Source of the DNA: Rhizobium redzepovicii
Lineage (GTDB): Bacteria; Pseudomonadota; Alphaproteobacteria; Rhizobiales; Rhizobiaceae
Length of the DNA stretch: 64,000 bases
NCBI RefSeq assembly: GCF_019793435.1
Contig: NZ_JAILYH010000003.1
Location: forward strand, 124,001-188,000
Direction of reading: 5' to 3'
Part shown: piece after piece, positions 27,822 to 36,751 of the stretch
Numbering within the stretch: the first letter of the stretch is position 1
Layout: each line of letters opens with the position of its first letter
Position numbers and translations under genes: made by a program
The notes under the pieces: model-generated
What the model was told of the DNA's origin: nothing
What the model saw: the letters and a program-made list of their open reading frames with translations, nothing else
Database searches by the model: none

Positions 27822-27895
27822 TGGGGCGTCGCCAAGCGGTAAGGCAACGGTTTTTGGTACCGTCATCCCTGGTTCGAATCCAGGCGCCCCAGCCA
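27822..27895 (+). tRNA. tRNA-Gln (TTG)
   Basis: A complete cloverleaf: acceptor TGGGGCG/CGCCCCA, anticodon arm ACGGT-ttTTGgt-ACCGT (anticodon TTG), T arm CCTGG-TTCGAAT-CCAGG, and encoded CCA at 27893-27895. It stands at the left edge of a low-GC accessory region, a usual integration point for islands, though no repeat of its 3' end was found on the right side. Confidence 0.95.
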
Positions 27896-28043
27896 ACGCA
27901 GTGTTTATTTTCAGCAATCTAGGCTAAGGAAGCGGCTTGCCAGTAATAGTTCGGTGCTCGAAACCGTCTTAAGTCCCTTGGTGAGCGGGCGACAGCTCGG
28001 CAACTCGCGTTATCGGAAGGCCGTGCAAACATGCGTCGGCCAG

Positions 28044-28235: not shown

Positions 28236-29078
28236 TCACAGGAATATACCAGCAAGCGACTCATCTCCTCTAAACGAGTCAGTGATTGCAATGCAGAAGG
28301 CTGAGTAAGGAGCTGTCTTTTCCCGCATTTTTCTCAGGGTGCTGATGGCTTGCCTGTATGATTGCTTGTGATCGGCATCTCCGTCTTCGAGTCGCGCAAA
28401 CAATCGCTTAGCTTCTACACGCAGCTCTTCAATACTGGCTTTCACGTCCATGCGAGCTTTCACAAAATCACTGTGGTTAATGTTGTAGCACTCGATGGAT
28501 AACATCGCCATGTCGTGCTTGTATTGCTCGCTAGCCGGAAATCGGGCCATAGCCTCGCCGTCTTCCTTGAAAGTGATCATCGCGACCTCATCCGGATTAC
28601 ACGGATCGATTAGATAGGTCTTTTCCGATTTCCAATTTGCGTCCGGGCCCATCGCCCGCGTCGCTTCTACTACAGGAAACCTATCAGCTTTTCCTCCTAC
28701 GAGGTCGGTCTCGATGTCGCGCCGTAGTCTATTCGCGTAGATGCAGCTGTAGCGATAGTTATCGAGATCGTAAGCAAGCCACCAATAGCCCGGATGCTCG
28801 TCGCCCTTCGTGGATCGCTCAAAGACTCGCCTCTTGGGCCTAAAGTGGTCCACATCGGTGTCTGTGCCCCTCTGAGGGGACTCAGTGTACCAACATTTTT
28901 CGCTAAATACCTTCCGAAGCTCGAATTTGATCTCGGACCAAATTTCGTTTTTGCGGATGATCTCGCTCCGCTTTAGAGGGTCGTTCTCTTTAAGCAGTCT
29001 TTTTTTTAAAGCCTCGGCGCGTTCGGCCCAATCAGGTGGGAGAGATAGCTTTTTCGGATCGTACTCGACGGCTCTCAC
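28236..29078 (-). CDS. HNH endonuclease, PtuB-like (TIGR02646-type)
   Basis: A 280-aa predicted nuclease. The HNH core is Cys62-Trp-Tyr-Thr65, then 'DVDHFRPKRRV' (His78), then 'YRYSCIYANRLRRD' with Cys112, Ala115 and Asn116. In the usual family both first and last elements are CxxC zinc knuckles; here the second cysteine of each pair is Thr65 or Ala115, so zinc is probably absent while the catalytic His and Asn remain. The start overlaps the ATPase stop by 4 bp. A PtuA-like ATPase plus HNH nuclease is the Septu-type effector arrangement; cleavage of DNA or RNA on infection is inferred. Confidence 0.82.
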   Translation of the reverse strand: MRAVEYDPKKLSLPPDWAERAEALKKRLLKENDPLKRSEIIRKNEIWSEIKFELRKVFSEKCWYTESPQRGTDTDVDHFRPKRRVFERSTKGDEHPGYWWLAYDLDNYRYSCIYANRLRRDIETDLVGGKADRFPVVEATRAMGPDANWKSEKTYLIDPCNPDEVAMITFKEDGEAMARFPASEQYKHDMAMLSIECYNINHSDFVKARMDVKASIEELRVEAKRLFARLEDGDADHKQSYRQAISTLRKMREKTAPYSAFCIAITDSFRGDESLAGIFL

Positions 29079-30700
29079 TGGCTAGGCCCCGAGTTTTCTT
29101 CCGTTAACATTTCTCGGATGATTTCGTCCGCAATCCGACGCCGCACTTCAGCGAGTGTGCTATCTTTAGTCGAGTTGAACAGCTCATCCGCGATTTTCTT
29201 CCGTCGTCGCAGATAGTCTTGATAATCGGTATCCCAGTGCGATGTTGAGAAACCAAGGCCCTGAAGTTCACTATTGATCGCGTTAAGCCGAATACTTTCT
29301 TCGGAGGAAAGCTCAGTTTTTTCACTCAGAGCTCTGCGTTCCCGAATTAGCTCTTCTGTCGGGAGGTCGATTGTTGTCTGTAAGCCAAACATATCGCTTG
29401 TTAGAATCCCAGCGTACCCCATGCCGCGCGGGCTCTCGATTGGAGGTTTTGCACGTACACGGTACTCACTGTCACGCGTCATAACTTGAACCTGATCTTT
29501 ATCAAGCTCAGCAATAGCAAGTGGGTGATGGGTTACCATGAGCAGGTGACTCGCCTCATGATTTGGAACGAATCCGCGCAGAAATTCCAAGTATTTCACG
29601 GCCCATGCGGGGTTAAGGTGGGTGTCCGGTTCATCGAGGAGAAAAAGTGAATCACGGCCGCCGGTGAATTTTAGCAAGCCGAGAACAGTAAGCAGCTGTT
29701 GCTCACCTTCGCTAAGCTCTCTGAACGTCAAGGGCGCCTCACTAGAGCTAACTCTGACACGAACGTTCACTTCAGCAATGATTTCCGACAATAATGTGCT
29801 TTCCAGCATCTTAAAGAACACGTCAGGTGTAAGTTCAGACGAGAAAGCGCGGAGGCTTTCAACGTCAGGAAGGAAAAGATGTATGAATTCGTTTTTGATT
29901 TTGCGCCCGGTAAGCGACAAAGTTTCGTTTCGAGTGACCCTGAGTGGGGAGAGAGCGAGCGGGTAAAGGCGGTCTAGAAAATCTCGAACGACACCTCCTG
30001 CACCCCAAAATTTCTCAGTTTTTAAATGAGATTTTACCCATTCCGGTCTCCGCATAACGAAGTGGACGGCGTCAAGCCCTTCAATTCCAAGTTGATCTCT
30101 GAGAAATTTTCGCTCTTTGTCCTCTTGTGTGCTCAAGAAAAAGGCGAGAAGCACAAACTGGCTATGGTTGGGTTTGGCGTAAAATAGCGGCCGTATCTGC
30201 CCGCCTAGCTCGACCTTATTTTCCAACAGCTTTCTGTAGAACTCGGTCCTGTGACGGCGAAAGTGATCTTCGAGGCGGTCACTGGGGCCGGAGTAATAGG
30301 CGAAGAGGTAATTGGGCAGGTAGTAACTTACACCGCTGGGATTTCTCTTTGCCCGCGAAATTGGGACCTGCTTCTCCGTTGTGAGCAAGTCACCAGGAGC
30401 TCTCTCACTGCAAGTGATCTGATATTGCTTGCTTATTGACCCTCTACCCGGGTCAGCATCCACAGTGATCCATCGCTCGTCGTTGCTCTCTCCCAGCTTG
30501 TATCGGATAGCATAGGAAAAGGCCGGGCTTTCGCCGAGGTCGAGGTTGCGAAATATAACGACTAGCGCCTCTAACACGTTAGATTTGCCGGAACCGTTCC
30601 GTCCGACAACGACGGTCATTAAATCGTCTTCATCGAAGTCGATCCGTACGCCCTCCAGATTTTTGAATGATGAGCGAATATGTAAAAAGTCAATCTTCAT
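29075..30700 (-). CDS. AAA15/SMC-like ATPase, PtuA-like defence sensor
   Basis: A 541-aa ABC-type ATPase of the overcoming-lysogenization-defect/PtuA group. Walker A GRNGSGKSN lies at residues 33-41. The signature 'LSEGEQQLLTVLG' is near 325-340, Walker B 'SLFLLDEPDTHLNP' near 350, and the H-loop 'VTHHP' near 388. The middle lacks a long SMC coiled coil. The tail from 430 is a charged helical region that could contact the nuclease. It overlaps genes on both sides by 4 bp. In Septu, PtuA senses the invader and controls the HNH protein; here it follows hsdM and hsdS, so it may respond to methylation state (inference). Confidence 0.87.
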   Translation of the reverse strand: MKIDFLHIRSSFKNLEGVRIDFDEDDLMTVVVGRNGSGKSNVLEALVVIFRNLDLGESPAFSYAIRYKLGESNDERWITVDADPGRGSISKQYQITCSERAPGDLLTTEKQVPISRAKRNPSGVSYYLPNYLFAYYSGPSDRLEDHFRRHRTEFYRKLLENKVELGGQIRPLFYAKPNHSQFVLLAFFLSTQEDKERKFLRDQLGIEGLDAVHFVMRRPEWVKSHLKTEKFWGAGGVVRDFLDRLYPLALSPLRVTRNETLSLTGRKIKNEFIHLFLPDVESLRAFSSELTPDVFFKMLESTLLSEIIAEVNVRVRVSSSEAPLTFRELSEGEQQLLTVLGLLKFTGGRDSLFLLDEPDTHLNPAWAVKYLEFLRGFVPNHEASHLLMVTHHPLAIAELDKDQVQVMTRDSEYRVRAKPPIESPRGMGYAGILTSDMFGLQTTIDLPTEELIRERRALSEKTELSSEESIRLNAINSELQGLGFSTSHWDTDYQDYLRRRKKIADELFNSTKDSTLAEVRRRIADEIIREMLTEENSGPSQ

Positions 30701-32319
30701 TCAGCTTCGCCCTTCTGAGGTACGAAGACGTCGTGTCCATCCCGCTCTAATCGCAAAATGGATCCAGCTTGGAGTTGGGTTCGGAGATCGAGGAAGAATT
30801 GTTCGATAAGGTCTGTTGAAGAGTCTTCTGGGTAGCCACAAAGGTAGAAGAGTTTCTGACCGTCTATCGGCTTATCCACGCCCTTTAAAGCTTGAGAAAC
30901 GGGTATCTGGCCTTTCATGAGCGATGTCCTAGGTTTCGATCTTCGCCTCGACGGCTTCGGTTGTGCTGCTAATAATGCTTCATATGCACTTAAGGATGTA
31001 AGCACATCTGTCTCACCGCTGATCTGTCTTGCTAATTTTCCGGCCAGCGCTTCTTTTCTGAGCGCTTTTTTCAATGCACCAAGTAGGCTCTCGACGCGAC
31101 TGGCTTCATTGCGGATTCGCTCAATGTTATCCAAGTGCTCTCTACTGATGCGAGCAATGTCGCGCTGCTGGTCGATAGGCGGAAGGGGGAAGGGAAGCGC
31201 GGCGAAACGCGAGACCCCGAGGTGTGCTAGGTTTGTGGTGATTTTAGCAATGCTTCTGAAAACGCCGCTGTGGAGATAGTGGCGAAACACGAGGAGCGCA
31301 TATTCAGGCTCAACTGCCCCAGACGCCCGAAACCGGACCAACGAATTGGTAAAAGCAACTGGGTCAAGCTCATTCCGAAACATAGCGGGTCGTCCGACAA
31401 GCTCCAAGCTTTGACCCTCATTAAGAAGTATGTCCCCATGTCGCAGCCTGTATGTTTCAAATTCCTTTTGCTCAAAGTGCATTGTCATAATGTCATCGAC
31501 AGAGATTCGATCTTCGAAAACATTTGCAACCCGCAGATAAGGTTGCATATTTTCACCATAGTGATTTTTAGGAGAGCGTTGTCGACCCGCGCTAACATCG
31601 CCGGCTGCCCCTACAGTAGATTTCTTCCACTCAAGCGGCGTCTCAAGGTTGCCGGAGGAATTTCGGCCTCGTACAGTGGCGGTCGAGTTTCGCTCCACTC
31701 TGGTTCGCTGTTTGCTTTGCCAACCCTTGAAAAGTTTTCCCTGCACCCCAGCCTCTATTATTCTGAAGGGCATGCGCTGAATGACTTCCGCTAAATCACT
31801 TAGCTTCTGATTGATTGTAGAAAGCAGAGAATACCGAACTTCCAGCTCTCGTATTATTCGCTGTTGCTCATCATAAGGAGGAATATGAGTAGAATATGCG
31901 AGAACGTCCGCTACCGATATTCTTGGCAAATTAACGCCTTTTGCTTTTGAGATCGCATAATCGATAAAGCGGTCATCGCTAAGTATCTCTAGCAAATAGC
32001 TGGTATCGAGCATCGCCGTCGGACGGAATACAACTATGTCTGTGGAGCAAATACCATCGAACGGTGCTATGGCAACCTTGTTTAGATTGGGTCGGAGCCG
32101 GCCATATAGCAGATCACCCGCTCGGAAACGGTTTTTAACGCTGGATATATCTGCGCCACTACCGTGGCCGATAATACGATGCGTATGACGCTCAATATGT
32201 TCCAAGCCTAGATACACTTGGCTTGCTGCATCCTCCCAATCAAACCTATCACTGGAAATAGCTGCCACTTGGCTCAGCTTAAGTTCGGCCCATCCGGCGG
32301 GAACGCGATTCGTGCTCAT
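30697..32319 (-). CDS. hsdS: Type I restriction-modification specificity subunit HsdS, extended
   Basis: The DNA-recognition subunit of 540 aa. Two target recognition domains lie at about 1-190 and 215-430, each followed by a coiled dimerisation helix ('DEQQRIIRELEVRYSLL' and 'DQQRDIARISREHLDNIERIR'), the classic HsdS layout. About 100 extra C-terminal residues follow a Pro/Arg/Ser linker and contain a small globular segment 'FYLCGYPEDSSTDLIEQFF'. Typical HsdS proteins end near 400-450. The extension may be a docking site for the ATPase/nuclease pair (inference). Overlaps of 4 bp occur on both sides. The recognised sequence cannot be predicted. Confidence 0.9.
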   Translation of the reverse strand: MSTNRVPAGWAELKLSQVAAISSDRFDWEDAASQVYLGLEHIERHTHRIIGHGSGADISSVKNRFRAGDLLYGRLRPNLNKVAIAPFDGICSTDIVVFRPTAMLDTSYLLEILSDDRFIDYAISKAKGVNLPRISVADVLAYSTHIPPYDEQQRIIRELEVRYSLLSTINQKLSDLAEVIQRMPFRIIEAGVQGKLFKGWQSKQRTRVERNSTATVRGRNSSGNLETPLEWKKSTVGAAGDVSAGRQRSPKNHYGENMQPYLRVANVFEDRISVDDIMTMHFEQKEFETYRLRHGDILLNEGQSLELVGRPAMFRNELDPVAFTNSLVRFRASGAVEPEYALLVFRHYLHSGVFRSIAKITTNLAHLGVSRFAALPFPLPPIDQQRDIARISREHLDNIERIRNEASRVESLLGALKKALRKEALAGKLARQISGETDVLTSLSAYEALLAAQPKPSRRRSKPRTSLMKGQIPVSQALKGVDKPIDGQKLFYLCGYPEDSSTDLIEQFFLDLRTQLQAGSILRLERDGHDVFVPQKGEAE

Positions 32320-33743
32320 TGATCGTCTTCGGTCACGTTCAACGCCACATGGAGATCCTCAACATCTTTGATAAGCGATCCCAAAGAAACCAGAACCAGC
32401 GCAGAAATCTCGTCGGGTCTCAACCCTTCATATTCATCGCTTTCCTGTTCATCAGTGAGCCAATGAATGTCGAGGTTTTCGTTAGTCGATGACAGATAGT
32501 CGAGATCGAACCGCTTAAACCTGTCATTTTCTACCCGGTCTTCGCTCACCCTTTCGAGATGGGGCCACTTGCCGAAGCTAGAAATAAAGTCTGCGAAATA
32601 GGATGAGGTTAGAGGATTCTTTTTTCCGAATTTAGGAGCGGCGGTTCGTAGGTCGTAAATCCAGACTTCCTTGGTATTTTCTTGGTTGCCATGGCCACGG
32701 GTGAAGAAGAGAACATTCGTTTTGACGCCTTGTGCGTAGAAAATTCCCGTCGGCAGACGCAAAATAGTATGAAGCGAACAAAGCTCCATAAGCTCTCGCC
32801 TAATCTGACGAGCCACTCCTTCCTCGAAAAGCACATTGTCAGGCAACACAACAGCTGCTCGTCCACCGGGCTTCAGGCTCTGATAGATATGCTGGAGGAA
32901 TTCAAGCTGCTTATTAGAGGAAGAGTAGGAAAAGCTGTCTCGTGTAGCGCGTACGCTTCCCGATTTTGCGCCGAATGGTGGGTTGGCGATAATCACGTCA
33001 GCTGGTTTTAGATGCGAGCCATCTTCGGTAAGCGCATCACCGAGCGAGAGAGAAGCGTTCATACGATGCAGGAACACGTTCATCAAACATAGCCTATATG
33101 TACCCCGCTCGATCTCGACGCCCTCATACTGCGGCGGCGTGGCTTCATATTCTTCTTGCGTTTGGGTAGCTCTAACATAGGCATCTGCGCTAATTAGAAA
33201 GCCACCCGTGCCTGTCGCAGGGTCTTGAATTAGCTCTCCTACCGTCGGCTTCACGATAGAAACTATGCAGTCTACCAACGCCCTCGGGGTAAAATATTGG
33301 CCAGCCCCTGAACGAGCATCCTCTGAGTTTTTTGCTAGAAGGGCCTCATAAATTTGCCCGAGGCCATCTTCAGAAATCTGATTCCATTGGATGGCGTTGA
33401 GGCCGTTTATAACCACCCGCAGGTTTTCCGAGTGTGAAAAAACGGTTGTTGGAAAAGCGAAAATGTCTCGAACCATTTTCGTTTCCGAGCTTGTACCAAG
33501 GTGAGTCAACATCTCCTGATAATGGCCCAGCAGGTTCGCCCCGTCATATGAAACGAGGTCTTTCCAACGATAGCCCTCAGGGAGGGAACTTTCGGCGCCA
33601 TTTTCTTCGGCCACCTTTAGAAAAAGTAGATAGGTGAGTTCCGCAATGTACTGATTATAGCTGATACCGTCGCCGCGAAGGACATTGCAAAGTGACCAAA
33701 TGCGTGACGCGGTGGCACGAGTTGACGGCGGCAAGGTTGTCAA
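32316..33743 (-). CDS. hsdM: Type I restriction-modification methyltransferase HsdM
   Basis: A 475-aa N6-adenine methyltransferase. The N-terminal helical domain starts with 'ATASRIWSLCNVLRGDGI'. 'GQYFTPRALVDCIV' precedes SAM motif I 'DPATGTGGFLISA' near residue 174, and catalytic motif IV is NPPF near 252. The start is TTG at 33743 with an AAAGG ribosome binding site. It is the first gene of a four-gene overlapping operon. No hsdR lies in the region or elsewhere in the window, so it either protects DNA without classical restriction or marks self for the downstream ATPase/nuclease (inference). GC is lower than in the flanking core genes. Confidence 0.93.
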   Translation of the reverse strand: MTTLPPSTRATASRIWSLCNVLRGDGISYNQYIAELTYLLFLKVAEENGAESSLPEGYRWKDLVSYDGANLLGHYQEMLTHLGTSSETKMVRDIFAFPTTVFSHSENLRVVINGLNAIQWNQISEDGLGQIYEALLAKNSEDARSGAGQYFTPRALVDCIVSIVKPTVGELIQDPATGTGGFLISADAYVRATQTQEEYEATPPQYEGVEIERGTYRLCLMNVFLHRMNASLSLGDALTEDGSHLKPADVIIANPPFGAKSGSVRATRDSFSYSSSNKQLEFLQHIYQSLKPGGRAAVVLPDNVLFEEGVARQIRRELMELCSLHTILRLPTGIFYAQGVKTNVLFFTRGHGNQENTKEVWIYDLRTAAPKFGKKNPLTSSYFADFISSFGKWPHLERVSEDRVENDRFKRFDLDYLSSTNENLDIHWLTDEQESDEYEGLRPDEISALVLVSLGSLIKDVEDLHVALNVTEDDQ

Positions 33744-33874
33744 AGCTGTAACCTTTCGAAAATGCTCTGAGTGGGCGTTGTTCGCAATTACGACATTCTG
33801 TCAAGTGGTGATGATGGTGGCATTCCGAAGAACACGGTCGGCAACGCCCGGCACCCCGCCGGTCCTGCGCCTTC

Positions 33875-34036
33875 CCCGCGCTCTTCAAACAGATGGACAC
33901 CCGTCAGTTCAGCAAGCTTTTCCACCAGCGCATCCTGAAACCCCGGATCGCTATTCTCCGCCGCCGCCTCCCGTTGCTGACGATGATGCCAATGCCGGCC
34001 GCTGGCCTTGGCTGTGGCGGCATCGCTCGTCGCCAG
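33875..34036 (-). pseudogene. 3' fragment of an SDR gene
   Basis: The minus-strand translation of these 54 codons matches the C-terminus of the SDR at 35972-36751 at about 74% identity ('GFQDALVE.LAELTGV.LF'). No start, Rossmann or catalytic part is present. It marks the boundary between the hsd operon and the next cassette, which is itself followed by the intact SDR. The rest of 33744-34137 has no supported gene. Confidence 0.65.
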
Positions 34037-34137
34037 CCGATGCTCGCAAATCGGCGCTCGCCGGCAAATTATCTGGACAAGGGCGATAAAGCGAATAGAA
34101 ATTTCTGTACAATCTGCGGTCACGCCTGGGGCAAATT

Positions 34138-35097
34138 TTGAGCGATATCAAACTCTTTAATTTCGGCGACGCGCAGGTGAGCGAGCTGCCCGGCAGCGCC
34201 ATGCAGGTCGAGAAATCCCTGCAGGTTCTGTTCGAGGCCAATCTCGAGGCGTTGCTCGGCATCCGCTTCCTGGCGACCGAGCACTCGACCGGTCACGTGC
34301 ACGGCGGAAGGATCGATACGCTCGGCCTGGACGAGGACAACTCGCCGGTCATCATCGAATACAAGCGGTCGGTGAACGAGAACGTTATTAACCAGGGCCT
34401 GTTCTACCTCGACTGGCTGCTTGATCACCGCAAGGAATTCCAATGGCTGGTTATGGAACGCCTCGGCCAGGACGTGGCGAATGCTGTTGACTGGTCTGCT
34501 CCGCGACTGCTCTGCATCGCCGGCGATTTCACCCGCTATGACGAGCACGCCGTTAAGCAGATCGCCAGAAACATCGAGCTTATTCGCTACCGGCGGTTCG
34601 GCGAGGATCTGCTGATGTTGGAACTGGTGCATGTGCCGAAGACCAGTAAACTCACTGGCACTAAGGTGATAACTGAGGTGAAAAGCCTGGGCTCCCTGCA
34701 GCCCGCAGCTGAGGCCGGTCAGGAAAGCGACCCCTACCTCAGTCAACGAATGAGCTACCGGCTATCGCAGTCGTCGGCAGACCTTCGAGATATTTATGAC
34801 GCTGTTCACCAGTTTCTGATCGCGCTCGGGGATGATGTGCAGGTAAAGGAATTGAAGCTCTACACAGCATTTAAGCGGCTGAAGAACTTCGTCTGCATGG
34901 AGATCTATCCCCAGGCGCGGACTGTGACGCTCTTTCTAAAGCTCGATCCAACTACCGTGGCGCTTGAAAGCGGCTTTGCACGCGACGTGAGCAATGTTGG
35001 CCACTTTGGTACGGGTGATCTTCAGGTAACGCTAAAGTCGATGGCGGATTTTGAGAAAGCACAGCCATTACTGGTTCGGGCTTACGAGGGTGGGTGA
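34138..35097 (+). CDS. NucS-like PD-(D/E)XK nuclease with DUF5655-type C-terminus
   Basis: A 319-aa protein from a TTG start. Residues 58-76 hold 'GRIDTLGLDEDNSPVIIEYK': Asp60, Glu74 and Lys76 form the D...E-x-K core of NucS/DUF91-type nucleases. A helix with 'NQGLFYLDWLLDHR' follows, as in that family. Residues 210-319 ('YDAVHQFLIALGDDVQVKELKLYTAFKRLKNFV') match DUF5655, often fused to such nucleases. No signal is seen. It overlaps the DUF429 gene by 8 bp and sits beside the hsd operon, so a defence or repair role is likely (inference). Confidence 0.82.
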   Translation: MSDIKLFNFGDAQVSELPGSAMQVEKSLQVLFEANLEALLGIRFLATEHSTGHVHGGRIDTLGLDEDNSPVIIEYKRSVNENVINQGLFYLDWLLDHRKEFQWLVMERLGQDVANAVDWSAPRLLCIAGDFTRYDEHAVKQIARNIELIRYRRFGEDLLMLELVHVPKTSKLTGTKVITEVKSLGSLQPAAEAGQESDPYLSQRMSYRLSQSSADLRDIYDAVHQFLIALGDDVQVKELKLYTAFKRLKNFVCMEIYPQARTVTLFLKLDPTTVALESGFARDVSNVGHFGTGDLQVTLKSMADFEKAQPLLVRAYEGG

Positions 35098-35920
35098 TCA
35101 GGGGAGCGCCACAACAATATCTGTCGTCGGTTTCGATTCAGCTTGGACCGACAATCCTAGGGCGCCGGGTGCAATCTGTGTCGTTCGACTCGATACGCAA
35201 GGTGCGCGGTTGCACGTTGCGCCGAGGTTGGCGTCATTCAGCGAAGCGGCAACGGTTATAAGGACCGAAAGATCTGAGGTCGGCAAATGTCTCGTCGCGC
35301 TCGATCAGCCAACAATCGTTCCCAACCTCAGTGGCTCGCGTCCGGTCGACAAGGTTGCAGGGGCGCTCATCTCCTGGGTAGGTGGCGGTGTTCAACCAGC
35401 CAACCGATCGAAGCTTGGCATGTTTGATGATGCCGCACCGATCTGGCGGTTCAAACAGGCAATCGGCGCCATTGAGGATCCAGAGGCCGCACGGGCCGCA
35501 TCGTCAGGGCTCTTTCTAATTGAAGTATTCCCCGCTCTAGCACTGGTTGTTATGGAGAGCGCCTACTGCCAACGTTATGGGGCGCCAAAATACAACCCAG
35601 CCAACCGGAAAATGTTTAAATTAGATCACTGGCTTTCCGTGGCGGAGACGATCCGGACATTCGGATCGCTCAGGGCTTTAGAGCAGCTAGAACTCTGGTG
35701 TTCTGATGTGTCGACTAACCTGATGCCGAGGAAAGCCGATCAGGACAAGGTTGATGCGATGATCTGTGGCCTCGTTGGCTTGCATTGGCTTTTGGCACCG
35801 CGCGACCAATCTGTCATGATTGGTGATCTGGACAACGGCTACATGATCGCCCCGGCGGTAAACGGCATCCATGAGCGGTTGGTTACCGCTGCAAGGAAAA
35901 GGAATGTGCCAATTAGATAG
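35090..35920 (+). CDS. DUF429 family protein (RNase H-like fold)
   Basis: A 276-aa protein. The start GTG at 35090 overlaps the upstream nuclease gene by 8 bp, which favours it over the longer frame to 35051. The N-terminal 'VVGFDSAWTDNPRAPGAICVV' and 'LVALDQPTIVPNLSGSRPVD', plus C-terminal 'KADQDKVDAMICGLVGLHWL', carry the conserved Asp residues of DUF429. That family is predicted to have an RNase H-like fold and possibly nuclease activity. Coupled translation with a PD-(D/E)XK protein suggests a two-protein cassette. It is the last island gene before the intact SDR. Confidence 0.8.
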   Translation: MGDQGSATTISVVGFDSAWTDNPRAPGAICVVRLDTQGARLHVAPRLASFSEAATVIRTERSEVGKCLVALDQPTIVPNLSGSRPVDKVAGALISWVGGGVQPANRSKLGMFDDAAPIWRFKQAIGAIEDPEAARAASSGLFLIEVFPALALVVMESAYCQRYGAPKYNPANRKMFKLDHWLSVAETIRTFGSLRALEQLELWCSDVSTNLMPRKADQDKVDAMICGLVGLHWLLAPRDQSVMIGDLDNGYMIAPAVNGIHERLVTAARKRNVPIR

Positions 35921-35971
35921 TGCGATCCTGATATGGCGCCGTGCCATGCCTGCGGACCCCGTTCTTGCGCC

Positions 35972-36751
35972 TCACCGGCCATCTGCGAACAGCCGGACGC
36001 CAGTCAACTCCGCCAGCCTCTCCACCAGCGCATCCTGAAACCCAGTATCGCCAACCTCCGCCGCCGCCTCCCGCCGCTGCCGATGATACCAATACCCACC
36101 GCTGACTTTCGCAGCCTCCGCATCGCTCGCCGCAAGCCACGTCTGCGTGAGATGCCCCATCTCCAGGTCATCGGGTGCGCCGGCGCCGCCCATCTTCGTT
36201 GGCACCCAGCCGGGATCCACCGCGTTGCTCAGAACATCCGGCCAATGGCGGGCGATGGCGGTGGCGAGGGTGGCGATGTAGAGCTTGCTTTCCGAATAGG
36301 CCTGGCTGGCGTTCCACGGCCGCTTCTTCCAGTCGATATCGTCAAGGGCGCTGCTGCCGCTGCGGTGCATGCCGCTGCTGAGATAGATGAGGCGCTCGGG
36401 GCGGGTGATCCAGGCGGTGAGCAGATAGGGGGCAAGCACATTCACCGCCAGCGTCTTGGCGTGACCATCAGGCGTTTCGCCCCGGCTCCTTTCGAGGTAG
36501 ATGCCGGCATTGTGGATGACGGCGTCCATGCGGCCGATGGCGTTGACCTGCTCGGCAATCGAGCGCGTTTCCGTGGTGCTGACGAGATCGCCGATGACGA
36601 TGCCGAGTGCGGTGGCTGACACCTCGGATATGGCGGCGGCCCGCTTCCGGGAGCGGGCATGCAGCACGACGTCATGGCCTTCCTTCATCAGGGTGCGGGC
36701 GGCGGCAAGGCCGAGGCCATCGGTGGAACCGGTGATGAAGATGCGGCTCAT
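35972..36751 (-). CDS. Short-chain dehydrogenase/reductase
   Basis: A 259-aa NAD(P)-dependent oxidoreductase. Cofactor motif TGSTDGLG begins at residue 8. 'NAGIYLE' is near 82. The catalytic pair is in 'SQAYSESKLYIATLA' (Y-x-x-x-K, in the form YSESK) with the Ser upstream in 'IYLSSGMHRSG'. The tail 'YWYHRQRREAAAEVGDTGFQDALVERLAELTG' is typical of a WW-oxidoreductase/retinol-dehydrogenase-like subgroup. The substrate is unknown. A diverged 3' fragment of the same type of gene lies at 33875-34036. Confidence 0.9.
   Translation of the reverse strand: MSRIFITGSTDGLGLAAARTLMKEGHDVVLHARSRKRAAAISEVSATALGIVIGDLVSTTETRSIAEQVNAIGRMDAVIHNAGIYLERSRGETPDGHAKTLAVNVLAPYLLTAWITRPERLIYLSSGMHRSGSSALDDIDWKKRPWNASQAYSESKLYIATLATAIARHWPDVLSNAVDPGWVPTKMGGAGAPDDLEMGHLTQTWLAASDAEAAKVSGGYWYHRQRREAAAEVGDTGFQDALVERLAELTGVRLFADGR

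Follow-up and report, generated by a model that had tools for sequence, protein, structure and literature searches.

Anatomy of the operon

The window analysed here is a stretch of 64,000 nucleotides from Rhizobium redzepovicii (contig NZ_JAILYH010000003.1, positions 124,001 to 188,000), and the element in question is an operon of four minus-strand genes at 28236..33743 of this window, which encode, in order, HsdM, HsdS, a PtuA-like ATPase and a PtuB-like HNH protein. This order, first proposed in a reading of the letters alone (the sequence-only reading), was confirmed from the open reading frames (ORFs) and from the families that their products match. Consecutive genes overlap by 4 bp, as had been stated; the assignment of every overlap to the ATGA type holds for hsdM/hsdS and for hsdS/ATPase gene, while the last one (ATPase gene/HNH gene), read directly, is GTGA. 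The hsdM gene (32316..33743, TTG start) encodes an N6-adenine DNA methyltransferase subunit of 475 amino acids with an NPPF motif and Pfam matches to N6_Mtase (244 bits) and HsdM_N, and the ORF of hsdS (30697..32319) is identified by its match to Methylase_S (52 bits). The third gene (29075..30700) encodes an SMC/ABC-type ATPase of 541 amino acids, which matches AAA_21 and AAA_15 in Pfam, keeps a Walker A motif (GRNGSGKS, 30581..30604), the signature LSEGEQQ and a Walker B motif (LFLLDEPD, 29624..29647), and has its nearest database relative (96%) in a protein labelled Rhizobium esperanzae. The fourth gene (28236..29078, GTG start) encodes the HNH protein of 280 amino acids, for which no Pfam family was matched and whose AlphaFold2 model has a pLDDT of 93.8.

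The suggestion that the last two genes form a Septu-like effector is supported both by profile and by fold. PADLOC assigns the ATPase to PtuA (PDLC00293, 669 bits) and the HNH protein to PtuB (PDLC00330, 276 bits), the PtuA profile retrieves solved PtuA chains among its best matches in the PDB, the PtuB profile retrieves solved PtuB chains, and the 11 best Foldseek matches of the PtuB model all come from PtuAB entries of Septu or of type I-A retrons (TMt 0.51-0.66). What is expected of Septu from the sequence, an ABC-type ATPase with Walker A, Walker B and signature motifs and an HNH protein encoded together with it, is present here. Within the part of PtuB running from C62 to N116 (28731..28895), an alignment of relatives shows H78, N107 and N116 to be invariant (26 of 26 aligned), and these are probably the catalytic residues of a putative HNH nuclease. 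By sequence, the motifs of methylation, ATP binding and HNH proteins are all in place.

Conservation of the gene block

Relatives were gathered with PtuA, and not hsdS, as the query. This left 28 loci (the window, L001-L009, L013-L022, L051, L052, L056, L057 and L059-L062) after removal of copies (L050 and L011 of L006, L010 of the window, L012 of L051, L023 of L052, L054 of L001, L058 of L057) and of L055, which is cut at its upstream side; PtuA is also present in genome G879, where the upstream side is cut by a contig end. The E. coli loci are four viewed regions of nine genomes from one search and one from another. The hsdS gene lies directly upstream of ptuA in 28/28 loci (decayed in L018, split in L009), ptuB follows next after ptuA (a displaced remnant in L018), and the genes mostly overlap or nearly abut. 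Decayed L018 was kept out of the trees and of the set of HsdS proteins. The position of hsdM is first in most loci and last in five (L016, L017, L056, L057, L059). The concern raised in the sequence-only reading, that the ATPase/HNH pair might usually occur independently of hsdMS, did not come true, as the pair stands beside hsdS in all 28 loci in which the upstream side is readable. The block recurs in Pseudomonadota, Fibrobacterota and Nitrospinota, on plasmids, in E. coli and in contigs of a viral collection, which argues that the gene order is more than chance; a search of a phages collection gave no match at 1e-30.

PtuB itself occurs in at least two divergent types, swapped under similar PtuA proteins (among L013, L014, L019-L021 and others). 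Between L021 and L019, for example, PtuA scores 0.65 and PtuB 0.17, and in several rows the C-terminus of PtuA changes to match.

HsdR is optional

The lack of an HsdR in the operon and in the window, noted earlier, extends to the whole host genome, in which neither PF04313 (134 contigs searched; the same search matches 9 of 14 control genomes) nor a profile made from the HsdR of three sister loci gave any match. An HsdR elsewhere in the genome serving this operon, a circumstance that would have told against the sequence-only reading, was rejected on these grounds. The same profile has no match in eight of the nine distinct genomes with loci lacking hsdR (ten handles, G051 and G748 being apparently the same assembly), nor in four plasmid records with such loci, while it does match the hsdR-bearing controls G744, G745 and W03; genome-wide, the search covers loci other than the five of E. 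coli and L060, and for plasmids the record only. In the ninth genome (G747) two helicase-part matches of 852 amino acids (97 bits) lie elsewhere, on contig C87. They were considered as an HsdR for locus L005 and treated as a separate system, since C87 also carries a fused HsdM-HsdS ORF (L063/L075) devoid of the C-terminal domain described below.

Among the relatives, hsdR adjoins the operon in 8 of 27 readable loci (L001, L002, L003, L015, L018, L056, L057, L061) and none is found nearby in the other 19, L059 having no readable state; the reach of "nearby" varies, and in L008, for instance, the contig ends 1.1 kb upstream, although the genome has no HsdR match. Of the search proposed earlier for the four-gene order with a consistent absence of hsdR, the first half has thus held and the second has not. 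Presence and absence of hsdR are interspersed on the PtuA tree, in which 25 of the 27 rows are labelled and 7 carry hsdR; at least six changes are required there and at least four on the HsdM tree, these counts being raw minima from trees with several weak inner branches and some long end branches. A grouping of the 18 rows without hsdR is rejected (p-AU 8.6e-61). HsdR is optional in this family, and its absence, taken in the sequence-only reading as the defining trait, had to be given up as such because eight sister loci keep the gene. The adjacency of hsdR in these loci and its mixed states on the PtuA tree suggest that PtuAB is an add-on, with or without HsdR, rather than a plain replacement of it.

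An additional C-terminal domain in HsdS

HsdS carries an extra C-terminal domain (CTD) of about 65 residues (30712..30903), winged-helix-like, which lies behind a low-confidence linker (residues 456-467) and matches no Pfam family. In the model it consists of three helices (474-478, 487-493, 502-518) and two strands (521-526, 529-534). A CTD profile recognises the domain in 24 of the 27 HsdS proteins of PtuA loci, that is, the 28 loci minus L018 (23/23 by leave-one-out together with the held-out L022), and in 0 of 10 distinct PtuA-free HsdS proteins from the same genomes, a count that leaves aside five further HsdS places. A word search of a protein database with the CTD matched only the HsdS itself and one relative at 91%. 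In 72,556 plasmids a tblastn search with an L021-type query matched only the HsdS of L013 and L014, and an L062-type query gave no match; since the PtuA-linked HsdS of L015, L016, L017 and L018 were missed, this reflects low sensitivity as much as exclusiveness.

At E<=0.001 the profile matches in 9 genomes of 398 and in 3 of 369. Strong matches (E<=2.1e-22) occur in four genomes (G000, G051, G319, G744) and are all PtuA-linked, these genomes or near-identical loci having been among the source sequences of the profile. A further eight matches are weak (21-24 bits), and none of the four inspected (L096, L100, L103, L104) is an HsdS; presumably they represent IHF alpha, CysS and RNase R. IHF also tops the list of PDB matches to the profile (E 0.065). 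By fold, the CTD weakly resembles the C-terminal winged helix of the kleisin ScpA bound to an SMC head (4i99_C; Foldseek rank 46, E 0.11, TMt 0.63), but the likeness to a kleisin is an analogy only; many other winged helices match it equally well.

The tail of HsdS follows PtuA

Pairwise distances over 26 loci show that the CTD correlates most strongly with PtuA (0.89), followed by PtuB (0.58), HsdM (0.57) and the rest of HsdS (0.40). In partial Mantel tests the correlation with PtuA given HsdM remains at 0.64 (0 of 5000 permutations), while that with HsdM given PtuA is 0.15 (p 0.10). The second long helix of HsdS (CR2, residues 382-425, 31045..31176) behaves in the opposite manner in the full set, with 0.54 for HsdM given PtuA (0/2000) and -0.07 for PtuA given HsdM. 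After removal of six long-branch rows the CTD-PtuA value is 0.77 (0/2000) and that of CR2-HsdM 0.34 (30/2000), and in a thinned set of 14 the former is 0.72 (0/2000).

Individual loci illustrate this pattern. When E. coli L062 is compared with E. coli L021, HsdM scores 0.90 and CR2 0.56, but the CTD only 0.11 and PtuA 0.36, and against L056 the pattern is reversed (HsdM 0.30, CR2 0.13, CTD 0.70, PtuA 0.77, PtuB 0.77), so that L062 looks like a natural swap at the CR2/CTD boundary. Likewise, L014, without hsdR, and L015, with hsdR, score 0.82 in HsdM and 0.69 in CR2, as against 0.05 in the CTD, 0.37 in PtuA and 0.16 in PtuB. At the level of sequence divergence, the CTD tracks PtuA and not HsdM, and in the full set CR2 tracks HsdM. 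Two points limit this picture. In the thinned set the CR2-HsdM value falls to 0.18 (423/2000), and the part of the claim concerning CR2 consequently rests on the fuller sets; moreover, linkage of the CTD to the gene that follows it could contribute to its correlation with PtuA.

A possible mode of action and its alternatives

In type I systems, HsdMS tells modified from unmodified DNA. The reading that we prefer, and hold tentatively, is that the products of the four genes form a single defence complex, with HsdS as a two-sided adapter and HsdMS as both the sensor and the leash of the Septu effector PtuAB. The long helix of HsdS would bind HsdM and the CTD is predicted to dock on PtuA. On the methylated DNA of the host the complex would idle with PtuB kept inactive. 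The contact between CTD and PtuA would change when the complex binds unmodified phage sites or is disrupted; PtuA would then free PtuB, which may cut either phage DNA or host tRNA, the latter as in characterised PtuAB systems. HsdMS would in this way fill the place held in retron-Septu by the reverse transcriptase and its multicopy single-stranded DNA (msDNA), the msDNA of Ec83 being described in a review as sequestering PtuAB until infection (PMC12948488). Where hsdR is present restriction would proceed in parallel, and the operon of the window would have no effector but PtuAB. We infer the docking, the trigger, the target and the sensing of methylation alike. A more specific version, possible and held with less assurance, sees HsdS as a chimeric adapter whose winged-helix CTD contacts the SMC-like head of PtuA in the manner of a kleisin, giving a methylation-gated Septu; PtuAB would then be a portable killer with interchangeable sensors (reverse transcriptase-msDNA or HsdMS), and the form without HsdR a type I system in which restriction was swapped for a leashed effector.

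Of the alternatives, the one that survives best, though we regard it as rather unlikely, is a guard in the manner of PrrC, where an intact type I enzyme holds PtuAB and an anti-restriction protein or DNA mimic that disturbs HsdMS (and HsdR if present) fires it, unmethylated sites not being the trigger. The loci with a full hsdR-M-S set and PtuAB (L001, L002, L003, L015, L056, L057, L061) do resemble the hsdR-hsdS-prrC-hsdM cassettes mentioned in passages of PMC11555353, and tRNA-Tyr is the target given for characterised PtuAB systems in passages of the same paper and of PMC13096335, akin to an anticodon nuclease that disables translation. Such a guard makes less sense, however, where there is no HsdR to be guarded, as appears to be the case in the 19 loci without hsdR nearby and in eight of nine distinct genomes without HsdR match.

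A second alternative is true restriction in cis. HsdM2S bound to an unmodified site would bring in PtuAB by way of the CTD, and PtuA, driven by ATP, would allow PtuB to cleave the phage DNA there or close by. With no HsdR match in the host, HsdMS, one ATPase and one nuclease would make up a minimal functional set, the CTD would be a recruitment handle, and Septu is listed as degrading the phage genome in a review (PMC12948488). Nevertheless, PtuAB can hardly have evolved just to replace HsdR when eight loci retain hsdR beside the same PtuAB, PtuA has no helicase or translocase domain by Pfam, and relative G043 carries at the very same chromosomal site a classical set of hsdM (516 amino acids), hsdS (386 amino acids, no CTD) and hsdR (1140 amino acids). 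We therefore consider replacement of HsdR unlikely, and slightly more so than a guard. That hsdMS, as an orphan methyltransferase, and ptuAB, as an ordinary Septu, merely travel together is highly improbable, for although defence genes cluster and relatives carry other cargo at this insertion hotspot, hsdS directly precedes the ATPase gene in 28/28 loci, in both the M-S-A-B and the S-A-B-M order, and its CTD is tied to PtuA.

If HsdMS is indeed the leash of PtuAB, Septu would gain a defined and programmable sensor in the recognition domains of HsdS; no statement on the trigger of standalone Septu was found in passages of the cited papers. A class of hsdMS operons without hsdR, which annotation would label orphan methyltransferases, would moreover be live defence systems. 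The CTD, at about 65 residues small enough to be removed or swapped from locus to locus, would offer a handle on the coupling of a single effector pair to various detectors.

Relation to known systems

Each half of the operon is already known separately, and PADLOC files the ATPase and the HNH protein as PtuA and PtuB; in open-licence papers, neither a joint hsdMS-ptuAB system nor the HsdS tail was found described. Standalone Septu shares with the operon the ATPase and HNH partner in one transcription unit, the PADLOC matches and the PtuB fold. It has no methyltransferase, whereas here hsdM belongs to the operon and the pair was found nowhere but behind hsdS. Retrons of type I-A, or retron-Septu (Ec78, Ec83, Eco7), are alike in that PtuAB is controlled by another module of the operon, by sequestration through reverse transcriptase-msDNA according to passages of PMC12948488, but HsdM-HsdS takes the place of the reverse transcriptase in the window. 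No reverse transcriptase family was matched in Pfam by the four proteins of the operon or by two neighbouring ones, and the NCBIfam models score under their cut-offs (PtuA 47 bits against 500, PtuB 27 against 150). Septu with a reverse transcriptase, and near Hma, has been described (PMC8565338); Hma, composed in that account of a helicase, an m5C methylase and an ATPase, differs from the operon, whose methylase is of the N6 type and in which Pfam shows no helicase.

With type I restriction-modification (HsdRMS) the operon shares an HsdM and an HsdS, both showing the domains and motifs to be expected of them, and differs from it in having no HsdR match and in the added CTD, unseen in 10 PtuA-free HsdS proteins. 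The PrrC cassettes (HsdR, HsdS, PrrC and HsdM, as given in passages of PMC11555353) likewise embed a toxic effector among hsd genes, but here PtuAB stands in place of PrrC and the window has no hsdR. The methylation-associated defence system (MADS) comprises, by NCBIfam names, HsdM-like, HsdS-like and AAA ATPase genes, yet the operon falls far below the cut-offs of its models (MAD2 93/720, MAD3 24/420 and MAD5 25.5/400 bits). The best NCBIfam model for the ATPase is TIGR04435, "restriction system-associated AAA family ATPase", whose name indicates that a link to restriction systems was noticed before, although the protein of the window reaches 142 of the 300 bits required by the cut-off and six relatives reach 124-164. 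The kleisin ScpA, finally, is comparable in the weak fold resemblance of its C-terminal winged helix to the CTD and in the SMC/Rad50-like nature of PtuA.

Genomic setting

The operon lies beside a tRNA-Gln gene (27822..27895, plus strand), at the 3' end of which left-side homology with eight close relatives ceases (27895-27906), which identifies it as the insertion site of an island. From 62-65% just outside, the GC content drops to 49-53% between 28 and 34 kb and to 56-57% between 34 and 36 kb. The site, fetched from seven of the eight close relatives (L155-L161), is a hotspot holding from 0.25 to about 9 kb of differing cargo, type I-like and R-bearing in two. In G1136 the distance from the tRNA end to the 3' end of an SDR gene is 251 bp, where the window has about 8.1 kb, and G1140 has an HsdR-like protein of 851 amino acids and an HsdM-HsdS-like fusion of 870 amino acids.

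Two overlapping plus-strand genes lie on the other side of the operon, and encode a DUF5655 protein (34138-35097; PADLOC PDC-S18, 483 bits, and a weak NucS_C match), whose IEYK motif we take to recall PD-(D/E)XK nucleases, and a DUF429 protein (35051-35920; PADLOC candidate PDC-S44, 431 bits). Among the loci searched, relatives of the DUF5655 protein occur near the operon only in L003 and L057. A direct repeat of 180 nt (77%; 33859-34038 and 35959-36138) places a copy of the SDR gene 3' end between hsdM and the DUF5655 gene, suggesting a separate insertion of the neighbours and two successive insertions; as this copy separates them from hsdM, they were rejected as members of the operon.

Other genes are found upstream of the operon in relatives. 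A protein of about 490 amino acids without Pfam family is encoded upstream of hsdM in the E. coli loci L021 (6149-7633; no PADLOC match) and L062 (2000-3430), and candidate defence genes lie directly upstream in L014 (4624-5703, SoFic-like), L015 (4735-5730, AbiD-like) and L016 (5508-6911, FRG-domain, PDC-S15).

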